From Cokeromyces recurvatus (lineage: Eukaryota; Mucoromycota; Mucoromycetes; Mucorales; Mucoraceae): a DNA stretch of 64,000 bases. Each line of letters starts with the position of its first letter. Within the stretch, counting starts at the first letter, position 1. This document shows, in pieces, positions 23,004 to 27,312 of the stretch. The position numbers and the translations under genes are program-made. The stretch is from contig NW_026251438.1 of NCBI RefSeq assembly GCF_025118155.1, positions 1-64,000 on the forward strand. Direction: 5' to 3'. The notes beneath the pieces were generated by a model that was given only the letters and a program-made list of their open reading frames with translations, did not search any database and was not told where the DNA came from.

Positions 23004-23217
23004 TCAATTTGCTCAAAAAATAAAATAAAAAAAATAAAAAAAAAATAAAATAAAATAAAATAAAATAAAATAAAATAAAATAAAATAAAATAAAATAAAA
23101 TAAAATAAAATAAAATAAAATAAAATAAAATAAAAAAAAGAATTTAGATATTTTTTTAAAGCGCGTAAACTACCCTTTCTTTTTGTTATTATTATTATTA
23201 TTCGTACTTTATAAAAT
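23004..23217. promoter_or_regulatory. Shared divergent promoter of SNF5 and INTS4 with a TAAAA microsatellite
   Basis: Only 214 bp separate the two start codons. About half is a run of some 18-19 TAAAA units (about 23042-23138), which would exclude nucleosomes and could serve both genes. No clear TATA box can be told apart from the repeat. Confidence 0.6.
23042..23138 (+). repeat. TAAAA pentanucleotide microsatellite
   Basis: Nearly perfect tandem TAAAA, about 18-19 units. The complementary-type repeat TTTTA occurs again inside the YIH1 intron at about 31804-31858. Confidence 0.9.
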
Positions 23218-26200
23218 ATGAAACGAGCACTGGTTGAAGAAGTTTCTTCAAATGATTCTTTACAAAATAGAAAGTACATATAATTTAGATTCTTTCATTC
23301 GAATTAATAACTAATGCATCAAAAGTGTACTAGATGTTGTGTTTAATGAATCAACACCTAATCTTGCAACATTAGGTGTAATACCTTCCAAAGTATTATT
23401 TATTTATAAGTTCTATTTGTAAATTGTACTAATGATTATTCTTAATGATAGTTACATTTAAATTTGTTAAATTCAGATAAAGTTGACGATCGTATCAAGG
23501 TGAAAATAAAAAGCCTTCTCAAGCACATTTCAAAAATTATGCGTTATTAATACATGTTGTACATTCTTAGTGTCTTTTAGAAATTGCTCGATATCTTTCA
23601 TTACTTACGGTTGAACAACGAAAAGAAATAACGGATAGTTTGATACATCATCTTGACAAGGAAGTGGATAATGATGCAAAAGTATGTATACGAAAAGAGA
23701 AAGAGAGGGAGGGAGAGGGAGAGGAAGAGAGAGATCTCAACAAGTTGATCACACTAATACATTATTAGGCCATGTTGATATTATTGATAAAAAAATGTTC
23801 AAGATTTCCTAATGTAAACGCCCATGTCATTGTAAAATGTCTATTAAAGGAGGTAATATCATCTATTTTATATTAATTCGAAATGTTAACGATTATCTTT
23901 ATAGCTTCAAACAAATTCAACAAAAGTAAAATGGCACACGTACAGTTGTATTTATTACATCTTGAAGGTAAAATTATTCACTATTCATTAATATGAATTA
24001 ACCCCCTTTTTTTTTCAATAGCACCGTCAAATTACCAATAAACAAAATGATGTTTTACAGTTTCTATTTAATTCCTTAACATCTGATCTATCCAACTCAC
24101 ATCACAAAGTTCGAGCCATTAGCATATCCGTCCTTGCCTTGCTACCTTTTGTTTTTAGTGATCAGACGATCATGTCACAATCCAAGATTCAAACGATCAT
24201 TAGTAATTATGCAAGAGATTGCGATCCACGTGTTAGAAAAAGTGCACTTGATGCTTTACTACAAATGCACTTGAGAGGCTGTCCGTTAGATCTTACGATT
24301 TACAATCTTTCAGTATGGTGTTTAAGGGACGATTATGAAGAAGTGCGTATGGGAGGATTAAATTTGATAGGGTAAATAATGAATTAGGATAAGATGAAGT
24401 TCTTTATTAAGTGTGTTCCCATTAGGGTCTTGAGTGCATTATACCCAGAACATAGGATGAAACTGGCCCATAAGGATGTGAACGAGACGACACGATTGAT
24501 AGATGATGCATTTAATAAAGTGTGTGACTTGGTAAATGATTCAGCTGTAGCTATAAGGACCAAAGCCTGTGTCATGATGGCATCTTATCAGCATGTTGGT
24601 TCAGATACTTTAAATCAAACATTTAGTAAACAACTCATGCTTAATTTAAGACGTAAACTTCCACGTTATAAACAACAACAAAAGAAGTATGCCAATGATA
24701 CGATACCTGTGGCTGAAGGAGATATTGATGTAGAATCAAATGAGTTTCATTTACTAGATTCTGGTGCCTGTGGATCTTTTATTCATGGTTTAGAAGACGA
24801 GTTTCAAGAAGTTAGAAATGCATCTATTGGTAAAATTAGCAGTGAATAGAGTTAAAAAAAAAAAGATGCTTATAATTATTTTATTTTTTCTGTGTAGACT
24901 CTATCTGTGAATTATGTATGTATAACGAGCAGTTGACAAAAAAAGCAGTGGAATTTTTGGTTGGTAAAAATAAAGAAAAAAAGAAAAAAAAAGCTATTGC
25001 TAACTAAATGTTTTATTTTAGATATGTTTAATGATGATATTGATAAGGTCCGACTTAATGCAATACATAGTTTACGAAAAATTGGAACAAGAAATACTTT
25101 GGAATTTGATGAGGAACAACTTGAAATTGCTGTAGGAGCATTAGAAGATAGTGACCCATTAGCCAGACAAGCTACACATGAATTATTTACGTAAGAAAAC
25201 ACAACTAAAATAATAATAATAAAAAAAAAAGACTCTATTTATTCAATTGTATTATTTTATGTAGAGTCGTTCGTCTTACAGTACCAACATCATTAACTAT
25301 TTTATTGGATGCATTAGAGGCCAACATGAAAAGATATCCAATGGATACATTATCTGTGTATCAATGCTTACGTGATATCGGAAAACGGCATGATGATTAT
25401 GTTCAAGACCTTGTACCTACATTGTTAAACTTGGATAAACGTTATCTCCCAAAAGAAGCCAATGTGGAGGATATAGTGTGTAAGTGAGTTTCCAATATTT
25501 CAATATTATTGCTAATTCTATTTCAAATATGTATATGTATATGTATATCTATATACATATCTACATCTATATCTATATCCATATGTATATGAATCTACAT
25601 ATTAGACACTGCTTATGTAATTTTAATTGTGAATGCTTGTTCAACTAATGTGAAAATATTGTATGATTTGCCTAAATATATATTTCGTCATTTTGCTTAC
25701 TTTCAAAGCAAATATCCTGATTGTATACCTGATTTAAGAGTAATTATCACGTAACTTGGATTTTTGGCATGGTATAATGACTAATTTTTTTGTAGAAATT
25801 GTATAAAATAGCTGGCATTAAATTAGAAGGAGATATCGATTGTTTACCCATGACATTTAACCGTAAGTAGAAATTTTGTTTAGTAATGTCAAACTTACCA
25901 TAAACTGCTGCTGTAGCTTCAGACAGTAAATTAGTGACAGCCACTGAAGATGACATAACGGTTGATATGGTTCAATTGATTCGGGCTCAGGTGAAAGACA
26001 GAGAATTATCAGCTGCATTATCGACAATTGAAGCTGCTATTCGTAATTTTAAAACTGTAAAACCCTACTTGAGTGGTAAAGCTGAATTAATTCAACTTTA
26101 TTTAAAATGTTTTGAAATTATTATTAAAGCAAAACAAGGCCATATCAATGGACAAATTGAGGCATCCAATCTATTACGCTATTCCTACACAATTCAATAT

Positions 26201-27312
26201 ACCTTTTTGGGTATATCAAAAACGACTTTACATGCTGCTGTTTACTTTCGACTTGTGGCTAATATGATTTGGATGTTTGATATCTTGAAACAAATGCCAA
26301 TGTAAGCTCCATGAATGACATGAACCTTCGAATGATTGCTTATCCTCCTTCTCTCTTTTTCATAGGTCAAAAAACACATCGTTTAGTATCAAGAATATGA
26401 TATTAGCATTTTACCAAAGAGTAGTACTATTACAAAAAGAAGAATTTGGTCAAAATAATGAAACTATAAATGATTTAAAGGAGACATTATTATCTACAAG
26501 TGAATCACCTACAACTCACAAGATGATAAAGCTTTATTCATTTATTATTGTAATATTGATTTTTTTTTTTTATTTATTCTAGTGTAAAAAAAAATGAATT
26601 TAATATATTCATCTATATTACCTACATAGGACTTTTTACCGCTTGAAATAAGTCTTGATAATCCAGTTAAACGTACAAAAGCCGATATCACATATCCTTT
26701 ACCGAATCCAGATAAGCCATACAAGTTTAATTCAAAATATCCAGCCAGTATACATATTGAAGCTGATATTTTTAATTCATGCGATACAAATTCATTTGCC
26801 ATTGAGGTAAGTACATGTTTTCTGTGTGTATGTGTGTGTATGTGTGTATGTGTATATGTGTGTGTATGTGTGTATATGTGTGTATATGTGTGTGCGTGTA
26901 TATATACATATATGGATGTCTGTATCGGTATTCATATTATATGTAGTTCATTTTACCAGATCAGTCTTCATTCATGTTTTGGCCGCCTTCTGGACATTTT
27001 AAACAAACAACGCCCTATTGTTTTAAACTTTCCACTAATGTTGAACTTTCTTTATCGTCTTGGTCAGGTAAAATTTACACTAAAGATATCTTTAATATCA
27101 TCTAATAGGAACTATTTTTTTTTGTGTATGTTACGTTAGAATCTGGAGTAGTTATTATTCGTATTGTTCAAACATTTGAGCCTGATTTACCAGGCCTTGA
27201 TGAATACATTATGAATTATTTTGGATCTAATTTTTCAAAGTCGACTTCTTCTTGTGTTATCAGTGAACATTTAAAATATCATTTATATCCTTCAATAAAT
27301 GCCCGAGTTTAA
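23218..27312 (+). CDS. INTS4: Integrator complex subunit 4 homologue
   Basis: Eighteen exons join in frame: 23218-23273, 23326-23392, 23452-23542, 23581-23681, 23769-23852, 23905-23967, 24022-24371, 24426-24829, 24898-24963, 25022-25190, 25265-25479, 25606-25739, 25796-25862, 25917-26301, 26366-26549, 26630-26806, 26947-27067 and 27140-27312. The product is about 968 residues, essentially the length of animal INTS4. HEAT-type repeats run through the N-terminal two thirds. Blocks that match the family include CDPRVRKSALDALLQMH, DDYEEVRMGGLNLIGVLSAL, ETTRLIDDAFNKVCDLV, DSGACGSFIHGLEDEF, DMFNDDIDKVRLNAIHSLRK and YIFRHFAYFQ. The C-terminus is beta-rich (FILPDQSSFMFWPP). In animals INTS4 scaffolds the INTS9/INTS11 cleavage module that ends snRNA and other transcripts. 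The first three exon joins are the least certain. Confidence 0.9.

Follow-up and report, generated by a model that had tools for sequence, protein, structure and literature searches.

Whether the Integrator complex, and with it a nuclease separate from the machinery that cleaves mRNA precursors, is found in fungi is the question raised by a gene of Cokeromyces recurvatus (Mucorales, Mucoromycota). This gene lies at positions 23218 to 27312 on the plus strand of a 64,000-bp stretch (the window) that begins contig C48 of the 28.05-Mb, 64-contig genome. In animals, INTS4 serves as the scaffold of INTS9 and INTS11 in this complex, with INTS11 cutting nascent RNA. Integrator is termed 'metazoan-specific' in a passage of a 2021 paper (PMC8565846), and Schizosaccharomyces pombe is described in a passage of another report as being without Integrator, with Dicer proposed as substitute (PMC12624956). 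The analysis presented here gives us high confidence that the Cokeromyces gene encodes a fungal INTS4 orthologue, most likely inherited vertically and most likely serving as scaffold of an INTS9-INTS11 nuclease apart from the CPSF machinery.

The gene encoding INTS4

The splice model, based on the sequence, on alignment to relatives and on public annotation, opens with an ATG at 23218, closes with a TAA ending at 27312 and includes 17 introns of 52-140 bp, all of the GT-AG type, with GC content being 33.0% in exons versus 25.3% in introns. The ends of exons 2 (23392) and 6 (23967) were set by alignment with relatives. The spliced product of 957 residues is identical at every residue to a public C. 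recurvatus protein, P0001, annotated as an 'armadillo-type protein'. As such, the start, stop, strand, 18 exons and undamaged reading frame reported in an initial annotation of this DNA agree with the model, as does the claim of a length like that of animal INTS4 (957 residues here versus 963 in human), while the length given there, about 968 residues, is 11 too many. The gene and its exons are as follows, exon limits being those of the splice model and domain labels coming from Pfam.

23218–27312 (+): whole INTS4 gene, 18 exons, 957 residues; splice equal to P0001; human INTS4 match at E 2.7e-96
23218–23273 (+): exon 1, with the ATG
23326–23392 (+): exon 2, donor from alignment with relatives
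23452–23499 (+): exon 3
23571–23681 (+): exon 4
23769–23852 (+): exon 5
23905–23967 (+): exon 6, donor from alignment with relatives
24022–24371 (+): exon 7, helical repeats, Cohesin_HEAT match
24426–24829 (+): exon 8
24898–24963 (+): exon 9, HEAT repeat match
25022–25190 (+): exon 10, HEAT repeat match
25265–25479 (+): exon 11
25606–25739 (+): exon 12
25796–25862 (+): exon 13
25917–26301 (+): exon 14, 8-helix-bundle region
26366–26549 (+): exon 15, 8-helix-bundle region
26630–26806 (+): exon 16, start of the C-terminal Ig-like domain (INTS4_C, E 3.4e-6 at 26687–26812)
26947–27067 (+): exon 17, C-terminal Ig-like domain (INTS4_C, E 3.1e-8 at 26947–27069)
27140–27312 (+): exon 18, end of the C-terminal domain and stop

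When a 938-residue version of the splice model (differing from the 957-residue version in the donors of exons 2 and 6) was compared with PDB sequences using phmmer, six were matched, with human INTS4 being aligned at E 2.7e-96 (residues 34-894 on 36-917). Such a value over residues 34-894 excludes chance similarity. In a comparison of P0001 with Pfam, twelve families were matched at E 0.01 or better, including the C-terminal Ig-like domain INTS4_C (PF25458; residues 821-951, E 4.1e-30, 104.7 bits against a cut-off of 27) and HEAT repeats (E 9.9e-12); nothing above the cut-off was returned by NCBIfam. When the predicted fold of P0001 was compared using Foldseek, the nine top-ranked rows were all INTS4 chains, with INTS7 chains directly behind and every other repeat protein ranking lower. 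Judged by its sequence and predicted fold, the gene is thus a fungal INTS4 orthologue, and the identity assigned in the initial annotation stands. Indeed, the protein shares with animal INTS4 (human chain 7cun_D, Drosophila chain 7sn8_D) a helical-repeat N-terminus, the C-terminal Ig-like domain and the overall fold, although identity to the two aligned animal rows is only 28-29% and residues 1-33 of the Cokeromyces protein are unaligned with human INTS4.

The INTS9 and INTS11 partners

To find the nucleases that INTS4 would hold, the whole genome was searched with a beta-CASP profile, which yielded five exon matches at no fewer than four loci, only the best candidates being scored. Upon comparison with PDB sequences, the C1 locus was identified as INTS11 (4.5e-234, as against 1.8e-105 for CPSF73 there), the C62 locus as INTS9 (1e-68), the C3 locus as CPSF73 (2.5e-229) and the C22 locus as CPSF100 (3.7e-107, the query being part of a splice model fused with a neighbouring gene). 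Because INTS11, INTS9, CPSF73 and CPSF100 occupy four distinct loci, the two nuclease pairs are separate, and the search proposed in the initial annotation for INTS9 and INTS11 distinct from CPSF100 and CPSF73 was thus answered in the affirmative.

In INTS11, the metallo-beta-lactamase/beta-CASP active site is intact, with the HFHLDH, GDY, TES and SAHAD motifs all being kept. Each motif position checked was identical in at least 59 of 60 INTS11 proteins compared, these being the first 60 of 107 listed rows of at least 600 residues (P0121 and 14 proteins without an assigned organism included). The same holds for the lysine aligned to human K462 which, together with INTS9 K510, contacts inositol hexakisphosphate (IP6) in the human cleavage module according to a passage of PMC9525679. 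The public INTS11 model of C. recurvatus, P0121, is without 22 genome-encoded residues, found between GAG and MHMG, that match human INTS11; it seems from the sequence that this model skips an exon.

In INTS9, the metal motif has been lost, leaving a degenerate site. The INTS9 fold was predicted for a Benjaminiella relative, P0241 (79% identical to the Cokeromyces protein; predicted local distance difference test score 77). The ten top-ranked fold rows were INTS9 chains, three of which aligned from first to last residue at a root-mean-square deviation near 7 Å, and this model suggests that the C-terminal region is retained. As expected within a single superfamily, CPSF73 scored 35.2 versus 35.4 for the tenth INTS9 row; since these fold scores are nearly equal, the choice between INTS9 and CPSF73 was settled by the sequence match.

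By analogy with the animal complex, fungal INTS4 would bind the INTS9-INTS11 heterodimer as a helical scaffold; in this pair, RNA would be cut by INTS11, a zinc-dependent endonuclease, while INTS9 would be the inactive member. The module would cut nascent RNA polymerase II transcripts, leading to termination, its likely targets being snRNA 3' ends and early transcripts, and would work apart from the CPSF73-CPSF100-symplekin mRNA machinery. The anatomy of the fungal module fits animal Integrator, except at the INTS9 K510 position. Of the cleavage module apart from CPSF and symplekin proposed in the initial annotation, then, the separate genes are present, while we infer from the animal precedent the assembly of the complex, its nuclease activity, its substrates and its expression.

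Extent of the complex and competing readings

Searches for Integrator subunits covered INTS1, 2, 3, 4, 6, 7, 8, 9 and 11. INTS2 (4.3e-26), INTS3 (2.9e-95 for the N-terminal half) and INTS7 (3.7e-61, at a locus on C45) are encoded in the same genome, the INTS2 and INTS3 queries being parts of splice models that are fused with neighbouring genes or, in the case of INTS3, comprise the N-terminal half only. INTS7 profiles may cross-match INTS4, as in the relative P0043, for which both are listed; that the C45 gene is merely such a cross-match was ruled out by the presence there of all three INTS7 Pfam domains.

Several observations weigh against the favoured reading of the gene as the INTS4 scaffold of such a nuclease. 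Of the signature blocks claimed in the initial annotation, the HEAT repeats and INTS4_C were recovered, while the 8-helix-bundle domain (PF24493), found in many fungal INTS4 relatives among the matches listed, scores 24.1 bits in P0001, below the Pfam cut-off of 27. Where human INTS9 has K510, an IP6-binding basic residue in animals, the Cokeromyces protein has Asp, so that the INTS9 side of the IP6 pocket may, judging from the alignment, differ from that of animals; the position is non-basic in most Mucorales rows shown and Lys in Rhizopus microsporus (P0246), and the adjoining position, human R511, is still Arg in Cokeromyces. INTS3 is also part of a separate DNA-repair complex, and its presence is therefore no proof of Integrator. 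When the genome was searched exon by exon, no match was obtained with the profiles for INTS1 (PF12432, PF22929), INTS6 (PF25462) or INTS8 (PF25756). The VWA_2 profile pointed to three loci, two of which were read as Rpn10-like and TFIIH-p44-like rather than as INTS6 or INTS14, the third being below the cut-off in a 2320-residue frame. Part of Integrator may accordingly be missing or too divergent to detect. The INTS1, INTS6 and INTS8 negatives nonetheless carry little weight, because an exon-by-exon search can miss divergent helical proteins and no animal control genome was included.

It is conceivable, if rather unlikely, that early-diverging fungi possess a slimmed Integrator, in which the cleavage module (INTS4, INTS9 and INTS11) is joined by INTS2, INTS3 and INTS7, while INTS1 and the PP2A arm (INTS6, INTS8) are lacking. 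If so, such a complex would represent a natural split of the cutting from the phosphatase function, with the whole machine then being lost toward Dikarya. Improbable is a reading in which INTS4 acts outside a full Integrator, either in a reduced INTS4-INTS9-INTS11 nuclease that lacks the other modules or absorbed into the CPSF machinery. This would agree with the lack of INTS1, INTS6 and INTS8 profile matches, yet those searches are open to the weakness just described, and INTS2 and INTS7, in animals part of the remainder of the complex, are present.

The idea that the gene is symplekin/Pta1, or a generic HEAT protein, mistaken for INTS4 can be set aside almost entirely. Like INTS4, symplekin/Pta1 is a helical-repeat protein that scaffolds a pair of beta-CASP nucleases, and generic HEAT profiles do match the INTS4 product. 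However, symplekin has its own gene elsewhere on contig C48 (about 86.6-89.7 kb; L034), beyond the window, detected with the N-terminal symplekin profile; a search of the genome with the Symplekin_C profile gave no match, and since the symplekin splice model ends early, the C-terminal domain may be either absent or missed. Moreover, symplekin/Pta1 was absent from the six PDB sequences and the twelve Pfam families matching the INTS4 gene product, with neither Symplekin domain (PF11935, PF12295) being among the latter. Identity with symplekin/Pta1 is thus refuted by the INTS4_C match and by symplekin having a gene of its own, and INTS4_C, together with the INTS4-first fold ranking, rules out a generic HEAT-repeat protein; the check for a better match of either kind put forward in the initial annotation therefore returned INTS4. 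Symplekin and INTS4, scaffolds of related nucleases, lie some 59 kb apart, possibly by chance.

Distribution and descent among fungi

To consider how widely the orthologue and its partners are distributed, protein matches were listed best first (the best 120 of 281 for INTS4, the best 120 of 6840 for INTS11 and all 51 for INTS9), only those candidates sharing most words being scored. Among the 120 INTS4 relatives listed, 115 name a fungus, two are echinoderms and three carry no organism. The phyla represented among these matches, with names checked for one species each, include Mucoromycota, Mortierellomycota, Glomeromycota, Calcarisporiellomycota, Basidiobolomycota, Kickxellomycota and Entomophthoromycota. 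For INTS11, 94 of the 120 listed matches name a fungus (one a chytrid), one is from Balamuthia and 25 are without an organism, while the INTS9 matches comprise 41 from fungi, including Syncephalis (Zoopagomycota) and Geranomyces (Chytridiomycota), five from animals and five without an organism. No Dikarya species was named in any of these three lists, which is not proof of absence. The presence of INTS4 in a fungus, as claimed in the initial annotation, is thus real, although not peculiar to Cokeromyces, with many of the fungal relatives among the matches listed already being named INTS4.

When 43 INTS4 proteins (41 fungal rows) were placed in a tree, the fungi grouped by taxonomy, with each of the seven groups containing two or more rows forming one side of a branch, and with the ten groups needing nine changes, the minimum possible. 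The deep branching order is unsure, because support for the placement of Basidiobolus next to Glomeromycotina is middling (84/88) and the row for Entomophthora is a long one. Proteins such as P0005, P0011, P0048 and P0052, the INTS4 of further early-diverging fungi, are similar to the Cokeromyces protein over most of the length, although diverged in sequence. Vertical descent is the plain reading of these sequences. Most likely, INTS4 was inherited from the animal-fungal ancestor and then disappeared in the line leading to the model yeasts, the ancestral complex probably having been kept in early-diverging fungi. Horizontal transfer from an animal into Mucorales, or contamination, would suit the 'metazoan-specific' label of PMC8565846, yet has next to no likelihood, being contradicted by the SNF5 and RAI1 genes that flank INTS4 on the same 122-kb contig, by the 115 fungus-named relatives and by the taxonomic sorting of the tree.

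The INTS4 protein family is already known, with many database records bearing the name. No account of fungal Integrator was found in the open-access literature, broad queries being covered in part, by title, start of the abstract and passages, nor is one given in those passages of PMC9525679, PMC12624956, PMC8565846, PMC6368637 and PMC7471841 that were retrieved. Integrator in fungi seems to be under-reported, not unknown. The occurrence of INTS4, INTS9, INTS11, INTS2, INTS3 and INTS7 in one fungus argues that fungi did not begin without Integrator. Early-diverging fungi would offer simple organisms for studying Integrator outside animals, and the loss of the complex in yeasts would become a datable event.

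Many of the publicly available INTS4 models for Mucorales, P0008-P0010 among them, are about 740-770 residues long and span some 81% of the Cokeromyces protein, perhaps reflecting N-terminal annotation cuts. In Mucor velutinosus, INTS4 (P0003) is named 'yap1' and INTS11 (P0127) 'Glycoside hydrolase, 38', naming errors that hide the family.

In the window, no family was reported by Rfam and hence no snRNA gene was available as a substrate in which to check for a cleavage signal. To the left of INTS4, a divergently oriented SNF5/SMARCB1 gene (4.2e-54) runs leftward on the minus strand from about 22985, the gap between the two containing an array of AAAAT repeats (about 25 copies; 23017-23139). 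To the right, a gene for a RAI1/DXO-type nuclease (Pfam RAI1, 1.7e-89) extends from 27423 onward on the same strand as INTS4, 110 bp past its stop; INTS4 and RAI1 both have to do with RNA ends and termination.
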